Of a stretch of 64,000 nt of DNA, positions 40,227 to 54,902 are shown piece after piece. A program made the position numbers and the translations under genes. The notes under the pieces were generated by a model, which searched no databases, was not told the DNA's origin, and was given only the letters and a program-made list of their open reading frames with translations. The stretch lies in assembly GCA_018110825.1 (NCBI GenBank), contig JAGBCL010000095.1:186001-250000 (forward strand), read 5' to 3'. Source of the stretch: Oscillospiraceae bacterium (GTDB taxonomy: Bacteria; Bacillota; Clostridia; Oscillospirales; Ruminococcaceae). How positions within the stretch are numbered: the stretch's first letter is position 1; each line of letters opens with the position of its first letter.

Positions 40227-40251
40227 GCTCAATACAACTAAATAGCAACTG

Positions 40252-40367
40252 TTTCAGGGCGAGGTGTAATTCCTCACTGGTGGTAAAGTCCACGAGCGAA
40301 GTGAAAGCTTTGTTGATTTGGTGAAATTCCAAAACCAACGGTATAGTCCGGATGAAAGAAACAAACG
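40252..40367 (+). promoter_or_regulatory. FMN riboswitch (RFN element)
   Basis: Conserved blocks of the FMN aptamer appear in order: CAGGGCGAGGTG-AATTCCTC, TGGTGGTAAAGTCCACGAGC, GGTGAAATTCCAAAACC and AACGGTATAGTCCGGATG. It is followed by a terminator and by the riboflavin transporter gene, so bound FMN presumably stops transcription into ribU. Confidence 0.95.
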
Positions 40368-41203: not shown

Positions 41204-41223
41204 TATATTGTAATTGAATAACC

Positions 41224-41341
41224 CTTATCAAGAGTGGCGGAGGAACTGGTCCTGTGAAGCCCGGCAACCTGATTGCAAACGAACCTTTGGTTCGCTGGCA
41301 AAAAAGGTGCTAAATCCTGCGGAATTATCCGAGAGATGAGG
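41224..41341 (+). promoter_or_regulatory. SAM-I riboswitch (S-box)
   Basis: The conserved S-box blocks are present: CTTATCAAGAGTGGCGGAGG, ACTGG, GAAGCCCGGCAACC, GGTGCTAAATCC and GAGAGATGAG. It controls metK through the terminator that follows; S-adenosylmethionine is expected to turn the gene off. Confidence 0.96.
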
Positions 41342-41363
41342 AATTTTTAAGATTAAAAATTCG

Positions 41364-47441: not shown

Positions 47442-49052
47442 ATGAACAAGTATGACGCTGACAAAATAATATCTTTATACGTTAAAAAGCTGTTCGGTTT
47501 TGCAATGTCAAAGCTGTCGAAAATTGACGAGGCAGAGGAGCTTGCGGCGGAAATAACCATTCAGGTTTACGAGTCATTATTAAAGCAGGACAGTATTGAA
47601 AATCCTGACGGTTATATATACCGTATCGCAAAAAATGTCTACGCACGGCATATCGACAGAAAAAACAAAACCACAGCTGTTGACGGTATCGAATATATTC
47701 CCGATGGCAAGGATTTTACGGCAGAGCTTATCGACAGCGAAACCTGCGGAATTCTGCGGCGTGAGATAACGTATCTCTCGAAAATTCAGCGTGAGATAAT
47801 TGTTCAGCATTATTTCCATGACAAAAAGGTCAAGAAAATTGCGGCAACGCTTTCCCTCAACGAAAATACAGTAAAATGGCATTTAGCCTGCTCACGGAAG
47901 GAGTTAAAATCAGGTATGGAAAGAACACGAACAACAGGAACACTCGGTGCAGAACCGATTAAATTTTGCAATATGGGACATTGCGGTCACCCAGGTTCAA
48001 AGGGTGACACGTCGGATTTTCTCGCAAAGGCTATTACGCAGAATATTGCCTATGCCGCATATCATCAGCCGAGAACAATAAACGAGATTGCCGAGGAACT
48101 TGGAATAAACCCTATTTTTGTGGAGGACGAGGTTGCCGTGCTTGAAGAATACGGCTATATGGACAAGCTTTCAGGCGGCAAGTACCTTACAAATATTCGT
48201 ATTACTGAACCAAATGAAACACGATACAGAATTTACAGAGAAATCGAGCCTAAATACTCCAAGCTTTTTGCAGAGAATTTTTTCGCACCAGTTCTTGAAA
48301 ATATAACGGAAATTCCCGAATGGCTTCACGTTCCCGATAATGACATCAATTTGCTTAAATGGTGTCTTGTGTGCTTTATGGCGTATAAGCTTTCTACAGC
48401 AGATATTTCCGACCAGAAATTTTCCGTCAAGCGTCCAGATGGCGGTGATTTTGTAGCAACAGCAATATTGGACGTAAAGCCCGATTGGGATATGAGCGAC
48501 GCAGAGCCGAATATTTACTGGGCTTGCGGTGATATGTGGCGTAACAGGTGTAACGAAGAAGTGTGGTGGAAAAGCTGGCAGTTGAATTTCCAGCAAACGT
48601 GCAGATGGGGCGGTTGGAAAGATAATCTTACCGAAGACTATGATAAAATGTATTTTTGGCTTAATAATCAGCTTCCCGAAATCACAAGCAATGCTGAAAG
48701 CTATGCACGTCTGCTTGAAAAGGGTTATCTGTTAAAGAAAGATAATAGCTACAAGTGCAACCTCATTCTTTGTGACAGCATAGCAAAGTGGTGGGAATAT
48801 ATTTGGGACTATATCCCCGAAGCAAACGAAGAAATCAAAGCGTTATCACTTGAATATACAGAGCAAGCTTTGAGGGCGGAGCTGTACGGTCAGCCCGAGC
48901 ATATGCACGAATTGATAAAGTATTACAATCAGAACTGTGCTTGTATGCTTCATACAAGGATAATGAAAAACCTGCTTGATATGGGCGTGCTGAAAATGCC
49001 GACAGAGGAACAGGCAAAGGGACTTTGCACGATTATGTTTATGGGTGAATAA
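47442..49052 (+). CDS. ECF-like sigma factor with long C-terminal extension
   Basis: A 536-residue protein. Residues 1-about 165 are a sigma-70 region 2 plus region 4 pair: EAEELAAEITIQVYESLL, NPDGYIYRIAKNVYARHID, and an HTH with LSKIQREIIVQHYF and LSLNENTVKWHLACSRKEL. A Cys/His-rich stretch FCNMGHCGHPG and a winged-helix-like part (NEIAEELGINPIFVEDEVAVLEE) follow. About 300 further residues rich in Trp and Cys (GDMWRNRCNEEVWWKSWQ) are not recognised. A standard ECF sigma is about 180 residues. No anti-sigma gene is adjacent. The start at 47442 follows GGGGGAAA. Confidence 0.82.
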   Translation: MNKYDADKIISLYVKKLFGFAMSKLSKIDEAEELAAEITIQVYESLLKQDSIENPDGYIYRIAKNVYARHIDRKNKTTAVDGIEYIPDGKDFTAELIDSETCGILRREITYLSKIQREIIVQHYFHDKKVKKIAATLSLNENTVKWHLACSRKELKSGMERTRTTGTLGAEPIKFCNMGHCGHPGSKGDTSDFLAKAITQNIAYAAYHQPRTINEIAEELGINPIFVEDEVAVLEEYGYMDKLSGGKYLTNIRITEPNETRYRIYREIEPKYSKLFAENFFAPVLENITEIPEWLHVPDNDINLLKWCLVCFMAYKLSTADISDQKFSVKRPDGGDFVATAILDVKPDWDMSDAEPNIYWACGDMWRNRCNEEVWWKSWQLNFQQTCRWGGWKDNLTEDYDKMYFWLNNQLPEITSNAESYARLLEKGYLLKKDNSYKCNLILCDSIAKWWEYIWDYIPEANEEIKALSLEYTEQALRAELYGQPEHMHELIKYYNQNCACMLHTRIMKNLLDMGVLKMPTEEQAKGLCTIMFMGE

Positions 49053-49097
49053 TAAAAAACGGGTACTGTTTTGAGCAGTTACCGTATAGAAATAAGT

Positions 49098-49128
49098 AAG
49101 GGTATCGGAACAAATCCGATACCCTTTA
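49098..49128. terminator. Terminator hairpin (GGGTATCGGA family)
   Basis: AAGGGTATCGGA and TCCGATACCCTT form a 12-bp stem around ACAAA, with T residues after it on the plus strand. It ends the sigma-factor gene. Confidence 0.82.
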
Positions 49129-49141
49129 TTTCTGATATAAA

Positions 49142-49349
49142 GAAAAACCGCCTTGCCGCCATGTGAAGCATAAAACCCGCACTCTGGCAGGTGGGCAATG
49201 CCCCTTCAGTTTCGCGCTCCCTGCGTCCGTTACTCCGCACATCTAATGCGGCGGGAGGTCTGCAATCCGCTGACGGAGGACAAATCCCTAATATAATGTG
49301 TTGGATTATAAAATCACACTTCATCGAACAAGGCAGAAATCTCTTTTCT
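49142..49349 (-). ncRNA. ssrS: 6S RNA
   Basis: A candidate of about 208 nt on the minus strand that regulates RNA polymerase by mimicking an open promoter. The 5' end carries CTGCCTTGTTCG and the 3' end GGCGGCAAGGCGG, so CTGCCTTG pairs with CAAGGCGG over 8 bp. TGTTCG and GGCGGCA match the conserved closing region of 6S RNA (E. coli has TGTTCG and GGCGGCA at the same places). An interrupted long hairpin with a large central bubble is consistent. Poly-T follows the closing stem. It has its own strong promoter. Confidence 0.8.
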
Positions 49350-49355
49350 GATAGT

Positions 49356-49384
49356 AGTATAGCACAATCAATCCGAAAAATCAA
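49356..49384 (-). promoter_or_regulatory. Promoter of 6S RNA
   Basis: On the minus strand, TTGATT (49379-49384), 17 bp, TATACT (49356-49361); the predicted first base is about 49349. Confidence 0.8.
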
Positions 49385-49430
49385 TAGCAATTTTTAGAAT
49401 TTTTGCTGACAAAATATGATATGCAATTGT

Positions 49431-50519
49431 TTACCAGTATGTGAAAACAAATCCCGCAAGGGGTGATAATACTATCATAATTACGGAAAAGCTGAACGAC
49501 TCAACGGAAGTAAGCGTCGCGCGCTGTTCCGATGGGAACATATCCTGCAGGATAGCGTTTGTACGTACCTGCAACGCATCATCTCCTACAGCTGCAATAA
49601 ATCCGCCCAGCGCCATAATCCAGTAAAGTGGGGAGTGTTCCGCAATAAATCCCGTCAGCACAAGTGATGTTGAAATTGCAAATATCAATTTGTAGCTGAT
49701 TTTCGGCAATTTCAGTATCAGCCTTGACCCGACAATTCCGCCCATTTCCATAAACAGCAGTGCAATTCCAAGTCCCCATTCGTGAATACCTTTTTCGGGA
49801 AGTTTAGCTTGCAGGAAAAACAGCAGAAGAATATCTACCGCACCAACAAACGAGTTGCAAAGCATCAAACCGATTGCCTTACGTACTTCCTTGATAAACG
49901 CAAAGCTTTCCCTGAAGCAGGAAATCAGCCTTTTGCCAAGTGGCACGTTATTGTTTGGTGCAACGGCGTAAACCTCGCGCAAAGAGGAGAGAACAGCAAT
50001 CTGTGCAGCACACATAATAATGTCAGCACCGTATGCAATCTTGTGCCCGATAGTAAGTGCGAAGCCTGCACAGAGAGTTGAGATACCGCTGCAAAGGCGG
50101 TAAATAATCAGTTGGTTGGATTCGTACTTCTCAAACCGACTTTCTTGTCGGGCAAGCTTGAGTGAGTCGTAAGCAAGTGCATCACCCGAACCTGACGAAA
50201 AGTTGTAGGTGAGTGCCATAAAAGCGATTGACAGACAAACCATAAAAAGATTGTCGGACATAATCATTATGACATTGGCAATCATATGCATAATTGCACT
50301 GACAATCAGCATTTTCTTTCTTCCGAACACGTCTGCAAGAACACCCGACGGAATTTCAAAAATAAGGCTTGTTATGTGGAATACGGTTTCAGCAATCCCG
50401 ATTTCCACAAGGCTGTAGCCCCGTGCCGCAAGTATTGCAACCCACGCACCCGTCAGCGATAGATTGCCCAGCACGGATGATGTATATAACTTTGATAATT
50501 GCTTCTTAATTTTAAACAT
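49431..50519 (-). CDS. MFS transporter, drug-exporter type, C-terminally short
   Basis: A 362-residue major facilitator with about 11 helices. The cytoplasmic signature GVLADVFGRKKML lies between helices 2 and 3, after ETVFHITSLIFEIPSG. The substrate is unknown; the N-terminus resembles Clostridial exporters in the macrolide/tetracycline MFS groups. The protein ends right after FSVIMIVLSPLAGFVF, where a twelfth helix would be expected. Start 50519 follows AAGGAG. It is preceded by a 220-nt leader with a peptide ORF and alternative hairpins, so induction by attenuation is likely. Confidence 0.85.
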   Translation of the reverse strand: MFKIKKQLSKLYTSSVLGNLSLTGAWVAILAARGYSLVEIGIAETVFHITSLIFEIPSGVLADVFGRKKMLIVSAIMHMIANVIMIMSDNLFMVCLSIAFMALTYNFSSGSGDALAYDSLKLARQESRFEKYESNQLIIYRLCSGISTLCAGFALTIGHKIAYGADIIMCAAQIAVLSSLREVYAVAPNNNVPLGKRLISCFRESFAFIKEVRKAIGLMLCNSFVGAVDILLLFFLQAKLPEKGIHEWGLGIALLFMEMGGIVGSRLILKLPKISYKLIFAISTSLVLTGFIAEHSPLYWIMALGGFIAAVGDDALQVRTNAILQDMFPSEQRATLTSVESFSFSVIMIVLSPLAGFVFTYW

Positions 50520-50529
50520 AAAAAATCTC

Positions 50530-50628
50530 CTTAACATAATTTTTCAATCGTTAAGAAGATAATGAACACCTATGTTAAGTTGGTCAGAAATGGTTAAATT
50601 TCAGCCTGTTTTTGACCGTCCAACTTAA
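50530..50628 (-). promoter_or_regulatory. Mutually exclusive hairpins in the MFS leader
   Basis: Three segments share pairing (plus-strand coordinates). 50620-50628 CCAACTTAA pairs perfectly with 50575-50583 TTAAGTTGG. 50571-50579 TATGTTAAG pairs perfectly with 50530-50538 CTTAACATA. The middle segment is common to both, so the helices exclude each other, and the second helix abuts the MFS ribosome site (AAGGAG on the minus strand). This is the layout of leader-peptide-controlled translation. Which state is 'on' cannot be decided from sequence. Confidence 0.75.
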
Positions 50629-50704
50629 AAAAGGGCGCACTATCCCTATAGCAGGGAAAAATGAAGCCTTTTTTCAGTTGTACATTAATCATTTTCCAGA
50701 ACAT
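50594..50704 (-). CDS. Putative leader peptide of the MFS exporter
   Basis: A 36-codon ORF, starting MFWKMINVQL, lies between the promoter and the MFS gene. AGAGG lies 8 nt before its ATG. Its stop lies between the first and second hairpin arms, so a translating or stalled ribosome would choose between them. A short AGGG/CCCT hairpin followed by TTTTTT lies inside the ORF and could add transcriptional attenuation. Similar short ORFs precede ribosome-targeting resistance genes, but I cannot identify this one. Confidence 0.6.
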   Translation of the reverse strand: MFWKMINVQLKKGFIFPCYRDSAPFFKLDGQKQAEI

Positions 50705-50745
50705 AAAATCAACCTCTGAATGTAATTGTTTCTGCGTACCTGCAC

Positions 50746-50774
50746 ATTATAGCACGGTTTACACAAATTGTCAA
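50746..50774 (-). promoter_or_regulatory. Promoter of the MFS gene
   Basis: On the minus strand, TTGACA (50769-50774), 17 bp, TATAAT (50746-50751): perfect consensus. The TTGACA sits directly next to the T-run of the DUF1292 terminator. Confidence 0.9.
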
Positions 50775-50806
50775 GAAAAAACGGAAGTGCTTGAAGGCAC
50801 TTCCGT
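50775..50806 (-). terminator. Intrinsic terminator of the DUF1292 gene
   Basis: ACGGAAGTGC and GCACTTCCGT form a perfect 10-bp stem around TTGAAG; on the minus strand a T-run follows. Confidence 0.88.
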
Positions 50807-50817
50807 ATGGTACTCAA

Positions 50818-51114
50818 TTATTCGCCGTCGTAAAGCTCGTTAAGACGGTCAAGGAACATATTGCCGATCTTTTCGTATTCCTCATCGCTGTCGATTGTAA
50901 CGAGAATTTCTTCGTCGTTTTCATCATATTCAGCCTTGAGAACAACCAGCTCAGCGTCAGCTTCGAGTTCCTTTGTAGGATCTTCATAATAAGGTACGAG
51001 AGCGTAGTAACGTTCACCGTCAACTTCGAGAGTGTCGAGCATTTCAAACTGCTGCTCAACGCCGTCCTCATCTTCAAGAGTATAAAGGTTAGCAGCCATT
51101 TCCATATCGTTCAT
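50818..51114 (-). CDS. DUF1292 domain protein
   Basis: A 98-residue acidic protein matching DUF1292 (TLEDEDGVEQQFEMLDTLEVDGERYYALVPY). The family is widespread in Firmicutes, often near RNA-metabolism or cell-envelope genes, and has no known activity. AGGAGG lies 8 nt before ATG 51114. Own promoter and terminator make it monocistronic. It is divergent from the large RNA region that follows. Confidence 0.85.
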   Translation of the reverse strand: MNDMEMAANLYTLEDEDGVEQQFEMLDTLEVDGERYYALVPYYEDPTKELEADAELVVLKAEYDENDEEILVTIDSDEEYEKIGNMFLDRLNELYDGE

Positions 51115-51186
51115 AGCAGAATCCTCCTAAAAAATATGATAGTGTCAGGGTTCCGAAGCACACGGCTGCAACACCCAACATATTTA

Positions 51187-51215
51187 ATTGTACAACTTTT
51201 GCGACTAAAAGTCAA
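51187..51215 (-). promoter_or_regulatory. Promoter of the DUF1292 gene
   Basis: On the minus strand, TTGACT (51210-51215), 17 bp, TACAAT (51187-51192), about 73 nt before the start codon. Confidence 0.75.
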
Positions 51216-51274
51216 GATAGAAAATAAACAAAAATAATGCACAAACACTGTACAGTATTTTGTGTGGAAACCTA

Positions 51275-51303
51275 TTGACAATGCACAAAAGTTGTGGTAT
51301 ATT
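51275..51303 (+). promoter_or_regulatory. Strong promoter of the non-coding region
   Basis: TTGACA (51275-51280), 17 bp, TATATT (51298-51303). The predicted first base is about 51310. It points into 1.18 kb without a recognisable gene. Confidence 0.85.
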
Positions 51304-51376
51304 ATATTCAAGGAAAGAGAACAACATAAAACAAGGTTCTCAAACCTAAAGAGTTGAAGCCGTACAGGTGGAGATA

Positions 51377-51535
51377 ATGCAGATAATCTTCCGTTCCAGA
51401 CTTACGGTAATTCAGAATTTTCTTGGAAAGGTTGGCGAGTCCGATGGCATCAGAACAGTTTATTTCACAGACAGTCCGCAGCGACTCGTTTGCAGCTATA
51501 CTTTAAGAAAATTAAGTTTAACCTGGGAAGTCTAA
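51377..51535 (+). CDS. Possible 52-codon small ORF in the candidate RNA
   Basis: An ATG frame starting MQIIFRSRLT and ending in a TAA, with GGTGGAG 4-7 nt before the ATG. It is basic and strand-rich, with no recognised motif. Its middle overlaps the first GGCGAGTCCGATGG motif copy and part of the 11-bp long-range helix, so it may be chance within a structured RNA. Kept because the ribosome site and length are reasonable. Confidence 0.3.
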   Translation: MQIIFRSRLTVIQNFLGKVGESDGIRTVYFTDSPQRLVCSYTLRKLSLTWEV

Positions 51536-51748
51536 ATGTAAAGCTATAAGCTTCACTTCCAAATTTGATACGATTTGTATAAGATTTAAACTTAAAGTAT
51601 ATAACGGGCCGCATCACTAAGCAAAAGCTGTAGGGAGTGCGGTATTTTTGTACCCTGAAAGCAAGCGAAGGTCAATGCGGGTTGTCTGTAAGCAAAGAAT
51701 ACCCTAAGGGGTTTTACATAAAACGCTGCAAAAAAATCTGATTAAAAA

Positions 51749-52452
51749 GGTGAATCCAATGGAGAAATAAGCGTCAGAGATATTTCAGAAAGAAGTGATG
51801 TCTATGACAGCAAAATTAATATTAGGTTTCAATAACCGTGTAATCTGAATTGATTGGAGTGAGACCACCAAAGCAGTTAATTTAACCTTGACCCAAATCT
51901 TAATGAAATGAAGGGATGTATATGAAATATACATATCACAATCTGAATATTTGATTACTAACGTAAGGGAGTGAGTCCGACAGGACAGGTAAGGCGGCTA
52001 TAAGCCGATTTCAGATAAAATAATTAAGAATTTGAGTGATTTATATGGTAATCAGAAAGACTTTATCCCATAAAATCTGAGAATACAGGAGTGAGTCCGA
52101 TGTCATAAACTGAGGCGTATGCCTTCACTGTTAAAATAATTCCGATAGGAGATGGCGGCAAAATGGTAATATTTATGCTGAATCGAAAGGAATATAAATT
52201 TTAAGGAGTGAGTCCAATGGCATAAGTCCATTCTCGATAATGAAATTCCAAACAGGAGATGAATATCATATGTGGTGATTCACATAATCTCAAAGGAATA
52301 TGAATTTCAGGGAGTGAGTCCAATGGCTTGAAAGATATCCGCATTAATCTGAAAAGGAGCGGTGTCTATGAAAAAAATGTATCTGAGTAAACTTAAAATC
52401 TGAAAAAATGGAGTGAGACCACCAGAACATTTAGCCTAACTTAATATATATC
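51749..52452 (+). repeat. Seven diverged tandem units of about 100-120 nt
   Basis: Copies of GGAGTGAG[T/A]CC begin at 51856, 51968, 52088, 52205, 52311 and 52410, with a diverged GGTGAATCC at 51749. The spacings are 107, 112, 120, 117, 106 and 99 nt. Most copies are preceded by AATCTGA or a similar purine-rich stretch, and most units hold a GGAG-like element followed by ATG in a hairpin. Outer stems differ but keep position: 52009-52016 with 52075-52082; ATTCC at 52139 with GGAAT at 52189; ATTCC at 52245 with GGAAT at 52295. The last unit is cut short by the terminator. Confidence 0.75.
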
Positions 52453-52488
52453 AGGAACTGTCAGGTCGGCAGTTCCTTTTTATTTTTG
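52453..52488 (+). terminator. Intrinsic terminator of the candidate large RNA
   Basis: AGGAACTGTC (52453-52462) and GGCAGTTCCT (52468-52477) form a 10-bp stem around AGGTC, followed by TTTTATTTTT. Confidence 0.9.
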
Positions 52489-52508
52489 GTAAAGATTTCA
52501 GAAAATGC

Positions 52509-52537
52509 TTGCTTTTGGGGGAAATTTGTGCAATAAT
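52509..52537 (+). promoter_or_regulatory. Possible promoter of the DUF368 gene
   Basis: TTGCTT (52509-52514), 17 bp, AATAAT (52532-52537), 34 nt before the start; imperfect boxes, but a terminator lies upstream, so some promoter is needed here. Confidence 0.4.
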
Positions 52538-52570
52538 AATTTCTGTAGTAAATTTGAAAGGAACTGAAAT

Positions 52571-53422
52571 ATGAGTTTTTTTGCAAAGGCAAAGGACAGT
52601 ATTATCCTTGCACTTAAAGGAATTATAATTGGTATCGGCAACGCTATCCCAGGTGTAAGCGGAGGTACAATTGCTGTTGTAACAAAAATATATGACCGAC
52701 TTATCGGTGCAATCACTCCGAATATAAAGAAGCTTATCAAGAATATGCCGTTTCTTATCCCTGTAGGGATTGGTATGGTAATCGGTATTTTTCTGACATC
52801 TGTTGCTCTGGAGCAGCTTTTCAAAAATTATAACGTTCCTACACAGCTTACATTTCTCGGACTTATTGTGGGAAGTTTGCCCCTTGTGTTGAACGAGTGC
52901 AAGAAGGAACAGAAGAAAATCCGTCCCATAAATCTTATCCCGTTTGCAGTTGGTGTGATATTTATGATTGTACTTCTTTTCGCAGGCAGCGGTAAGGCAC
53001 TGTTCAGCGGCGGTACATTAAGCGTAAGAGATGTTGTGCTGTATATCGTGATGGGATTTATTGCTGCTGTAACAATGATTATCCCAGGTGTAAGCGGTTC
53101 AATGGTAATGAAGATTTTCGGTGCTTACGACTCTGTAATTTCAGCTGTTGCAAATCTGGAAATTCCCGTGCTTGTATGCTTCGGAGCAGGTGCCGTAATC
53201 GGTGTGTTCGTTGCTGCAAAGGTTATCGATGTGCTGATAAAGAAGTATCGTCAGGGAGTCTACTGCCTGATTATCGGTCTGATTGTCGGCTCTGTGCCGC
53301 ATATTTTTCCTGCAGAATTCCGTTTCAATGCACAGGGAATTATCGGAATAATATTGTTCTTTGTCGGTGCGGCAATTCCGCTTCTGATGGAGCGTCCATT
53401 CAAAAAAAAGGAAAGCGAATGA
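52571..53422 (+). CDS. DUF368-family polyprenyl-phosphate transporter
   Basis: A 283-residue membrane protein with about eight helices in two inverted halves, each with a glycine-rich loop: GNAIPGVSGGTIAVVT near residue 24 and IIPGVSGSMVMKIFG near residue 177. DUF368 proteins (PopT type) were recently linked to flipping the C55 undecaprenyl-phosphate carrier back across the membrane for wall synthesis. The assignment rests on the duplicated PGVSG motif. GAAAGGAACTG precedes the start; a terminator follows. Confidence 0.88.
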   Translation: MSFFAKAKDSIILALKGIIIGIGNAIPGVSGGTIAVVTKIYDRLIGAITPNIKKLIKNMPFLIPVGIGMVIGIFLTSVALEQLFKNYNVPTQLTFLGLIVGSLPLVLNECKKEQKKIRPINLIPFAVGVIFMIVLLFAGSGKALFSGGTLSVRDVVLYIVMGFIAAVTMIIPGVSGSMVMKIFGAYDSVISAVANLEIPVLVCFGAGAVIGVFVAAKVIDVLIKKYRQGVYCLIIGLIVGSVPHIFPAEFRFNAQGIIGIILFFVGAAIPLLMERPFKKKESE

Positions 53423-53426
53423 TTGT

Positions 53427-53453
53427 GGGGTGCTGAATTTACAGCACCCTTTT
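53427..53453 (+). terminator. Intrinsic terminator
   Basis: GGGTGCTG and CAGCACCC form an 8-bp stem around AATTTA, followed by TTTT. Confidence 0.88.
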
Positions 53454-53564
53454 GTTGTAATAATTTGTTTTACAAATACTAACAAAATTATGACATAAAA
53501 AATACAAATTAGAATATATAACATTTTGTTTTTAAGTTATAATATCATCTGATGAGGTGATAAA

Positions 53565-54902
53565 ATGGCTAAAACAACAAATCTTACAGAGGGAAAGGTT
53601 TCCGCAATTCTTCTCAGCTTCTTTTTCCCTATGCTGTTTACAAACCTGCTGCAGCAGGTATATACATTTGCCGATGCCGCAATTGTGGGTAAAGGACTCG
53701 GTGACAACTCCCTTGCGGCAGTCGGAAATATGACTTCACTTGCTTTTTTTATAACTGGATTTTCAATCGGCATGACAAACGGGTTCGGTGTTATTATTGC
53801 ACAGAATTACGGAAGCGGTAATATTGACAAGTTAAGGAAAAGTATTGCTGCTTCGATTAAGCTTTCGGCAATCATTTCGGTAGTGCTGACAATTGTTGGA
53901 CTGGTTTTTCTCAGACCCGTAATGATTGCAATTCATACCTCTGAAGATATTCTTGAGGAAAGCCTCTTGTACGGCTACATTCTTTTCGGCGGACTTGTTA
54001 CAGCTGTAGCGTATAATATGTGTTCGGGTATACTCCGTGCACTGGGTGACAGTACAACTCCTTTCAAGGCAATAATTGTTTCTTCTGTGGTAAATGTTGG
54101 ACTTAACTGTATTTTTATTTTCGGTTTAGGTACAGGAGTAGAAGGTGCGGCAATAGCAACAATTATTTCTCAGGCACTTTCTGCAGTTATCTGTTTTATC
54201 AGAATAAGGCAGATTGAGGTAATTGCACTCAGACGTGAGGATTTTGCGGCAGATATGAAGCTTAATGGAATATTGCTGAAAAATGGTATTCCAATGGCTT
54301 GTATGAATTCAATAACGGCTGTCGGAAGTATGATTGTTCAGTCTTATGTAAATGCACTCGGTGTAATATACACCTCAGCATATTCTGTAGGAATAAGATA
54401 TATCAATCTGCTCATGATACCATCTTTGACAGCAGGATTGTCAACATCATCATTTGCAAGTCAGAATTATGGTGCCGGTAAATATCACCGTATCAGAGAG
54501 GGCGTGCGTGTAAGTATTGGAATAGCACTGCTTTCGTATGTCTTTGTCGGTGCAGCACTGCTTCTTGTGCCTGAATTCCTTGCCAAAATAATGCTTAACG
54601 GAGATGAGGCGATAGGTCTTGCTGTGGAATTCCTCCGTATAGTTGGAGTAACCTTCTGGATTATAAGTGTAATGTTTACATTCAGAAATGCCGTTCAGGG
54701 AATGGGATACCCATTTGTGCCGATGTGCTCAGGAGTGCTTGAAATGATTATGAGAATTTCCGCAATTGTTCTGTTGCTTCCGAAAATAGGATTTAAGGCG
54801 ACTGCGGTTGCAGAAGCTGCTGCATGGTCAGGAGCATTGCTTATGAATTTTGCTGCATACGTTGTTCATATAAACAAGAAGCTGAAAAAAACAATTGAAT
54901 AA
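53565..54902 (+). CDS. MATE-family efflux transporter
   Basis: A 445-residue protein with 12 membrane helices in two homologous halves. LTEGKVSAILLSFFFPMLFTNLLQQVYTF and a GFGVIIAQNYGSGN loop are typical of the DinF/NorM-like MATE group, ion-driven multidrug or metabolite exporters. The substrate is unknown. ATG 53565 follows GAGGTGA; TATAAT at 53538-53543 is a likely -10 box although no good -35 is seen. Confidence 0.9.
   Translation: MAKTTNLTEGKVSAILLSFFFPMLFTNLLQQVYTFADAAIVGKGLGDNSLAAVGNMTSLAFFITGFSIGMTNGFGVIIAQNYGSGNIDKLRKSIAASIKLSAIISVVLTIVGLVFLRPVMIAIHTSEDILEESLLYGYILFGGLVTAVAYNMCSGILRALGDSTTPFKAIIVSSVVNVGLNCIFIFGLGTGVEGAAIATIISQALSAVICFIRIRQIEVIALRREDFAADMKLNGILLKNGIPMACMNSITAVGSMIVQSYVNALGVIYTSAYSVGIRYINLLMIPSLTAGLSTSSFASQNYGAGKYHRIREGVRVSIGIALLSYVFVGAALLLVPEFLAKIMLNGDEAIGLAVEFLRIVGVTFWIISVMFTFRNAVQGMGYPFVPMCSGVLEMIMRISAIVLLLPKIGFKATAVAEAAAWSGALLMNFAAYVVHINKKLKKTIE

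Follow-up and report, generated by a model that had tools for sequence, protein, structure and literature searches.

Natural two-codon genes are known from phage and from laboratory constructs, leader-peptide attenuators carry a short open reading frame (ORF) within a fold ahead of a terminator-like hairpin, and 6S RNA binds RNA polymerase. The tarsal-less/polished rice transcript of Drosophila, which was thought to be noncoding, holds several short ORFs whose peptides share a motif and constitute the product, and the psm-alpha operon of S. aureus comprises four ORFs of ~20 codons with membrane-active products. The locus analysed in the current work resembles tarsal-less in carrying several short ORFs on a seemingly noncoding transcript, but tarsal-less is eukaryotic and most of the peptides specified here are weakly constrained; with psm-alpha it shares several very short ORFs on one (predicted) bacterial transcript, although psm-alpha is without two-codon ORFs or a repeated motif, unlike the array described here. 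Length, a partly covarying structure and a transcription unit of its own are features held in common with OLE, ROOL and GOLLD RNAs, whereas the array is without an Rfam match, its start and stop sites are conserved throughout and its covariation is found mainly in the leader and the 3’ end, being weaker around p4 and p7-p10 (see Table 1); the likeness to these RNAs drawn in a preliminary description of this DNA rests only on length. As in leader-peptide attenuators, a short ORF in a conserved fold is followed by a terminator-like hairpin, but the sequence behind the hairpin is not a protein gene here and no run of a sensed codon was seen. 6S RNA is a neighbour of the locus and the decoy mechanism proposed below is drawn by analogy with it, but the two are unrelated by the Rfam model and the proposed target here would be the ribosome. 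The bar minigenes of phage lambda, associated in lambda with peptidyl-tRNA drop-off, likewise consist of a Shine-Dalgarno (SD) sequence followed by an AUG-sense-stop ORF, whereas here the two-codon ORFs occur in tandem on a presumed chromosomal transcript, with ORFs of 10-15 codons between them and a sense codon that is mostly GCA; according to a review, expression of bar-type minigenes can tie up tRNA and inhibit translation (PMC8012679).

The window analysed is the whole stretch of 64,000 nucleotides, in which the preliminary description had proposed, between a near-consensus promoter and a 10-bp terminator, a large structured RNA lacking ORFs above 60 codons. Both boundary signals were found to be present, the promoter scoring 11/12 and the terminator consisting of a 10-bp stem (52453-52477) followed by TTTTTATTTT. 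Since promoter-like sites (12 found versus 11.4 in shuffles) and terminator-like sites (4 versus 3.3) occur in this region at chance frequency, conservation is needed to decide, and both signals recur in relatives, with the identical terminator stem sequence seen again in several genera. Under a simple terminator rule, 33 of 45 loci have a site, at a promoter distance of 0.6-1.7 kb, but the rule also passes two false-positive loci (L052 and L054), so that on its own it is weak and this length range approximate. The homologue search that the preliminary description had suggested, performed with a 1251-nt query, gave a match in 20 of the 21 genus genomes (own included; E <= 0.001) and in other genera too; all 10 genus genomes with a completeness of 90% or more and a contamination of 5% or less match, and the one miss, G014, is 82% complete. 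No ORF of at least 60 codons lies inside 51312-52497, as had been noted, but the interval hides 11 conserved micro-ORFs.

The Rfam comparison, also suggested there, gave no family match on the transcription unit at gathering thresholds, and a permissive search of the unit returned only two chance-level matches (E 4.7 and 5). Among 60 sources from relatives (59 distinct, L105 having been used twice, and the array being absent from some), Rfam recognised only 6S, RNase P, tRNA and one Gut-1. A tRNA or tmRNA identity was ruled out with ARAGORN (0 genes in 49000-53600), as was a phage-borne element (0 exact GGAGTGAGTCCVATGGCWTA matches in viral contigs), and no description of this RNA appeared among the titles and abstract starts of the open-access matches listed. 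These comparisons confirm a real, conserved and independent unit that is absent from Rfam and presumably transcribed; judged from its sequence, it is best read as an array of micro-ORFs and putative ribosome sites with a structured leader, from which its function is inferred.

Table 1 Features of the locus (positions in the window; p1 to p11, micro-ORFs; fractions refer to rows of the genus alignment unless stated otherwise)
Feature	Position	Strand	Remarks
6S RNA	49141..49342	-	3’ side of DUF1292 in many relatives
Divergent DUF1292 gene	50818..51114	-	PF06949, E 1.9e-17
Conserved promoter	51275..51303	+	-35 TTGACA, 17 nt, TG-extended -10 TATATT; recurs upstream of array in other genera
Inferred transcription unit	51310..52488	+	Promoter and terminator; matches in 20/21 genus genomes, own included
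ORF1 domain	51413..51650	+	37 pairs; wider fold 54 pairs
ORF1 (p1)	51444..51506	+	MASEQFISQTVRSDSFAAIL-stop; 18/18 orthologues, 20-26 codons
11-bp helix overlapping ORF1 stop	51497..51601 (51497-51507 / 51591-51601)	+	Helix 2
Terminator-like internal hairpin, possible attenuator	51608..51649	+	Helix 5; 7 bp including G-U, followed by T5
p2	51759..51770	+	MEK-stop; 2-3 codons; 12/18 orthologues
p3	51804..51848	+	MTAKLILGFNNRVI-stop; 18/18, 13-14 codons
Motif 1	51856..51866	+	GGAGTGAGACC; 7 nt past p3 stop; then ACC, no ATG
p4	51922..51954	+	MKYTYHNLNI-stop; 18/18; pN/pS 0.25
Motif 2	51968..51978	+	GGAGTGAGTCC; 13 nt past p4 stop; then GACAGGACAGG
p5	52045..52080	+	MVIRKTLSHKI-stop; 18/18, always 11 codons; weak SD match
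Motif 3 and two-codon p6	52088..52108	+	GGAGTGAGTCC and ATGTCATAA; 2 codons in 18/18
p7	52163..52204	+	MVIFMLNRKEYKF-stop; 15/18
Motif 4 and two-codon p8	52205..52225	+	GGAGTGAGTCC and ATGGCATAA; 17/18, all 2 codons
p9	52270..52278	+	Here MW-stop; 17/18
Motif 5 and two-codon p10	52311..52331	+	GGAGTGAGTCC and ATGGCTTGA; 17/18, all 2 codons
p11	52368..52403	+	MKKMYLSKLKI-stop; 18/18
Motif 6	52410..52420	+	GGAGTGAGACC; 6 nt past p11 stop; then ACC, no ATG
Intrinsic terminator	52453..52488	+	Orthologues keep stem with paired base changes

In an alignment of 18 same-genus orthologues (L001 being the window; the fragments L007 and L015 were left out), the 11 micro-ORFs stand behind SD-like sequences at conserved start positions, are present, from p1 to p11, in 18, 12, 18, 18, 18, 18, 15, 17, 17, 17 and 18 of the 18 rows, and have stop codons that swap in place among TAA, TAG and TGA. 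Several ORFs each have a predicted ribosome-binding site, as in a polycistronic message, some of these sites being weak. The lengths of p3, p4, p5, p7 and p11 are 10-14 codons, except in two unusual rows of p11, L010 having 15 codons and L004 a 23-codon reading that runs through N letters, and p9 has two codons only in the window and in L002, with 10-15 codons in the other 15 rows having it. The three two-codon ORFs (p6, p8 and p10) are mostly ATG GCA stop and show the minigene arrangement of an SD followed by AUG-NNN-stop in 18, 17 and 17 of the 18 rows, respectively; the stop of p6 is TAA in 11 rows, TAG in 6 and TGA in 1, with unchanged length. In these counts the p8 row of L019 is a repeat of its own p6 site, and the p7 row of L020 aligns an ORF of another module kind.

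The expectation by chance was estimated with 200 shuffles of 21 of the 33 delimited RNAs, 8 from the genus and 13 from 12 other genera. SD-preceded ATGs number 204 in these relatives as compared to a shuffle mean of 72.6 (maximum 94), ATGs with at least 5 SD matches 130 versus 29.8 (maximum 43), and SD-preceded ORFs of at most 3 codons 81 versus 13.4 (maximum 22), the same three counts on the antisense strand being 9, 3 and 0. As the loci are related, these counts are not independent; all 13 outside-genus loci individually exceed their own shuffle means. Among 114 ORFs that follow CC[ACG]ATG, 52 have exactly two codons, 17 have three and 4 have one, and GCA (24) and GCT (6) are the commonest of 53 second codons counted. 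Genes with high expression show a preference for alanine as their second residue (PMC1397820).

The selective constraint on the specified peptides was assessed as pN/pS from 12-17 sequences per ORF, with identical sequences and rows containing N or of unusual length being dropped; given the shortness of the ORFs and a possible overlap with structure, the ratios are rough. Strong amino-acid constraint is seen for p4 alone (pN/pS 0.25; changes by codon position 29/6/40; consensus M..YAYHDLNI-stop), the values of p1, p3, p5, p7, p9 and p11 being 0.77-0.91 and the pooled value 0.70. These data bear on the possibility that the unit is a polycistronic micropeptide mRNA, the peptides of 10-15 and 20 residues being its product with a signalling, membrane-active or regulatory role. 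Such a role would agree with the constraint on p4, with the (Y/F)HDLN-like ends that, read by eye, are seen again ahead of the third motif class in several further genera, and with ORF1, which retains recognisable sequence (its frame changes near its end in L006, L010, L016 and L018) and for which 31 of the 36 other loci taken as carriers have a counterpart, 14-27 codons long and in many cases acidic at its start. Two-codon ORFs, however, can carry no peptide message, and the ratios of most of the longer peptides also speak against this possibility, which is considered somewhat unlikely. Ribosome occupancy is preferred over peptides as the putative function because only p4 is strongly constrained, and because start, stop and length of the micro-ORFs are better kept than peptide sequence.

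An 11-mer of the form GGAGTGAG(T/A)CC is repeated six-fold in the unit and had, like the micro-ORFs, gone unseen in the preliminary description. Within the genus it is usually located 0-13 nt past the stop of a 10-15-codon ORF, the window distances from stop to motif being 7 (p3), 13 (p4), 7 (p5), 0 (p7), 32 (p9) and 6 nt (p11), of which the 32-nt gap results from the shortening of p9 in the window, as in most orthologues p9 ends beside the motif. Motifs 1, 2 and 6 have no ATG behind them, and distinct motif copies in the 42 loci searched are followed by ATG in 52 cases, by CC in 58 and by other sequences in 35. Exact GGAGTGAGTCC occurs in four copies in the 3.1-Mb genome, all at this locus, and general SD usage of the genome was rejected as an explanation, the exact motif occurring in G000 only here; a CC[ACG]ATG context is found in 1 of 44 uncurated window ORF starts.

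Pairing was calculated against a 16S 3’ tail sequence that was assumed, the tail not having been found in this assembly. With this assumed partner, motif strings of all classes give -13.5 to -16.4 kcal/mol, as compared to -14.5 for the best of the 44 uncurated window ORF start regions and -25.7 for a perfect complement, of which the motif falls short. The SD-like sites of p1 and p11 are strong (-16.7 and -16.1), and those of p3, p4, p5 and p9 are ordinary (-9.3, -9.1, -6.5 and -9.5). Extended SD pairing has been documented in S. aureus (PMC13009471). The deviation of the motif from the perfect complement is a constant one and speaks for an additional constraint, and the preservation of the exact 11-mer across genera, copies without ATG included, suggests a requirement more specific than SD strength.

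An order-wide scan with GGAGTGAGTCC matched 75 of 394 genomes, mostly as single scattered matches, a reversed control also matching many genomes; by our reading, at least two copies within 1.5 kb occur only in G000, G107, G199 and G266, all of the window’s family. A phylum scan with AAGGN{0,4}GAGTCCRATG matched 61 of 398 genomes, with several matches on one contig only in G107, and exact GGAGTGAGTCCVATGGCWTA in a collection of 84,980 species was found in 25 stretches, all from Ruminococcus sp., Oscillospiraceae or Clostridia MAGs.

Within the family sample, the nucleotide query matched 33 of 247 genomes and 22 of 126 genera, matches outside the genus being often confined to the promoter or to short stretches. 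Loci from 26 (L031-L056) of the 29 outside-genus genomes with a match were examined; 21 of them carry GG[AG]GTGA[GA][AT]CC, all with a divergent DUF1292 gene. L052, L054, L055 and L056, with a promoter match only and without motif and DUF1292, were treated as false positives. A further divergent-DUF1292 locus, L038, making 22 of 26, has micro-ORFs with a variant motif: the exact motif is absent, and at RNA positions ~380-525 this 0.6-kb relative shows three AGTCCAATG/GGTCCAATG two-codon ORFs (M-K-stop, not M-A-stop). A second survey was guided by DUF1292, found in 27 of 28 family genomes picked among those without a BLAST match, and used a strict rule under which an array needs a promoter, an ORF resembling ORF1 and one or more CCnATG ORFs that follow an SD and have no more than 3 codons. 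By this rule, the 28 family loci comprise 9 arrays (two from one genome), 2 partial cases and 17 scored as neither, among which L123, L136, L137 and L140 yet show the promoter and single elements and several of the remainder have a protein gene in the array’s place. None of the 20 loci examined from other families of the order scores (2 of them have <400 nt of upstream DNA), one, L105, being partial with promoter, ORF1-like ORF and variant motifs; three other-family loci and one family locus were left out as they were not re-found by tblastn. Relatives with promoter, divergent DUF1292 and predicted micro-ORFs thus appear in many, not all, genera of the family.

Of the 20 genus loci (L001-L020), 18 have a divergent DUF1292 gene beside the unit, as do the 22 outside-genus loci mentioned above; the two exceptions, L005 and L007, lie on contigs that stop at the place expected for the gene or short of it. 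With a single query, no DUF1292 match was obtained in 7 genomes outside the order, and neither DUF1292 nor YrzB occurred in a title or abstract among the literature matches listed. In three sets of relatives 6S RNA was found in 11/20, 13/20 (mostly without array) and 14/20 sources, and by the coordinates compared it lies on the same strand as DUF1292, on its 3’ side; as it adjoins DUF1292 also in families without the array, the pair is wider spread than the array. The genetic linkage to DUF1292 makes this protein a candidate partner if GGAGTGAG(T/A)CC were a repeated protein site comparable to the GGA sites of CsrB-type RNAs, the RNA a sponge for an RNA-binding protein and the micro-ORFs secondary. 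The exact conservation of the 11-mer even where no ATG follows, and its uniqueness in the genome, would suit such a sponge, but relatives often have GGGG in place of the GGA core, the two-codon ORFs and the placement near stops would be unexplained, and families without the array still keep DUF1292; the sponge is regarded as improbable.

A gene for a PF04018 protein (undecaprenyl phosphate translocase-like; DUF368 is the older name) lies 82 nt downstream of the unit on the same strand, and 9 of 20 genus loci have a gene of this type behind the unit. The unit might accordingly be viewed as the leader of this gene, yet a terminator stands between the two and no such gene is present in the flank of the other 11 genus loci or of any of the 26 outside-genus loci (many flanks being short or cut); this highly improbable reading was rejected, the gene being absent beyond the 9 genus loci in the flanks examined. 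The PF04018 protein, when searched against viral contigs, had no relative there.

Other elements were observed in the vicinity of these loci. The divergent neighbour of DUF1292 in L097 and L108, from two other families, looks like infC (translation initiation factor IF3), a name which we assume from the start of the protein; L103 has a marginal Gut-1 RNA match at 2138-2213 (50.2 bits, cutoff 50), ~640 bases from the start of its DUF1292 match; and in one genus member RNase P RNA directly follows the array on the same strand (L003:1-320, minus strand). The window itself contains FMN (40246-40367) and SAM (41222-41342) riboswitches on the plus strand, and a perfect 12/12 promoter (50774-50746, minus strand) which lies immediately past the DUF1292 terminator and upstream of an MFS gene.

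The leader of the unit shows a conserved fold. In the ORF1 domain, GGCGAGTCC (51434-51442), just 5’ of the ORF1 start, pairs with the ORF1 codons GACTCGTTT (51483-51491). The 11-bp perfect pair reported in the preliminary description exists, with 83 nt between its arms, and helix 2 of the genus consensus (99.3% of cells paired) comprises 8 of its pairs; the internal hairpin reported there is likewise real, corresponding to helix 5 (51608-51614 with 51637-51643; 98.4% of cells paired) and being followed by at least five T in 18 of 18 rows. For the 37 pairs of this domain, 96.7% of cells are paired in the 18 sequences as compared to 34-42% in slid controls, and 22 cells with changes on both sides were counted versus 8.5 in shuffles, of which 0 of 500 reach 22; these changes sit in 4 pairs of one helix, and 186 of 500 shuffles reach 4.

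The whole genus alignment was checked stretch by stretch using RNAalifold folds and 300 shuffles. Both-side changes were found in 11 of 18 pairs before ORF1 (49 cells versus 15.8 in shuffles), in 10 of 54 pairs of the wider ORF1-domain fold (45 versus 18.4) and in 7 of 30 pairs from p11 to the terminator (30 versus 12.1), cell counts reached by 0 of 300 shuffles in each of these stretches. Changes of this kind occur in 4 of 36 pairs across p7-p10 (12 cells versus 3.7), in 2 of 26 pairs of the p4 stretch (10 versus 4.4) and, unconvincingly, in 2 of 9 pairs of the linker (4 versus 2.2), and no pair with both-side changes was found in p2-p3 and p5-p6 of the 18-row alignment. The shuffles flatter these structures, as the folds were obtained from the alignment under test, whose sequences are related. 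Folding of the window sequence gave z -1.38 for 51410-51660 (18 of 200 shuffles fold as well) and z -3.12 for 51740-52440 (0 of 20).

Leader and 3’ end are thus, on covariation, structured RNA as first suspected, and parts of the array are unsupported. A large structured noncoding RNA of the OLE/ROOL/GOLLD kind with incidental ORFs could account for this covariation and for the folding of the array region, but not for the 81 tiny SD-preceded ORFs or the in-place stop swaps, nor would it be expected to leave stretches without both-side changes, and it has no Rfam match; it is judged quite improbable. The earlier proposal of an undescribed large structured RNA stands as to an independent unit with structured parts, but the unit is no ORF-free ornate RNA, with conserved SD-like sites, starts and in-place stops all along it. 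The arrangement of the leader, with the ORF1 pairing, a helix over the stop and a terminator-like hairpin with a U run after a short ORF, resembles an attenuator and may control readthrough. ORF1 letters GCGACTCG could, by eye only, pair with CGGGCCGC of the internal hairpin, a candidate for a competing antiterminator helix.

The preferred reading, to which a probability of about 0.42 is assigned, is that of a standalone RNA with a structured leader and repeated ribosome-site modules, whose function would be ribosome occupancy as a decoy or sensor. The leader would hold the 20-codon ORF and the terminator-like hairpin, and would be followed by about six modules, each combining an SD-like site with an ORF of ~10-15 codons; past the ORF stop, as a rule at a distance of 0-13 nt, comes GGAGTGAG(T/A)CC as an extended partner of the 16S 3’ tail, and in half of the modules a two-codon ORF is next. 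Ribosomes may start, stop and be recaptured repeatedly along such an RNA, which would serve to sequester or to sense free small subunits and the capacity for initiation, and translation of ORF1 might decide the passage of transcription beyond the internal hairpin. The main evidence against ribosome occupancy is provided by p4 and ORF1; the imperfect 16S complement, the absence of ATG behind motifs 1, 2 and 6, the ordinary SD at p3, p4, p5 and p9, the window p9 being cut to two codons with its stop 32 nt before the motif, and a structure better supported than a pure start-site array needs also count against it. The attenuator part is weakened by the internal hairpin being U-poor and by GGTATTTTTATACC, which can form a competing hairpin. 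A further-reaching version, drawn by analogy and regarded as unlikely, is that the RNA would be a dedicated translational counterpart of 6S RNA in this gut family, switched by its leader ORF and encoded beside DUF1292 and 6S RNA. Its extended SD motifs and two-codon genes in tandem would imitate start sites, at which 30S subunits would be loaded and recaptured so as to throttle or report translation initiation.

The locus cautions against taking a long intergenic unit for noncoding simply because none of its ORFs exceeds 60 codons. If the array is translated, it would represent a chromosomal RNA whose conserved content is largely the starting and stopping of translation, retained throughout one genus and in many further genera of a family of gut bacteria. 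Translation would also bring natural two-codon genes into normal cell physiology, and would offer a handle on DUF1292, which is listed in Pfam as a family of unknown function.
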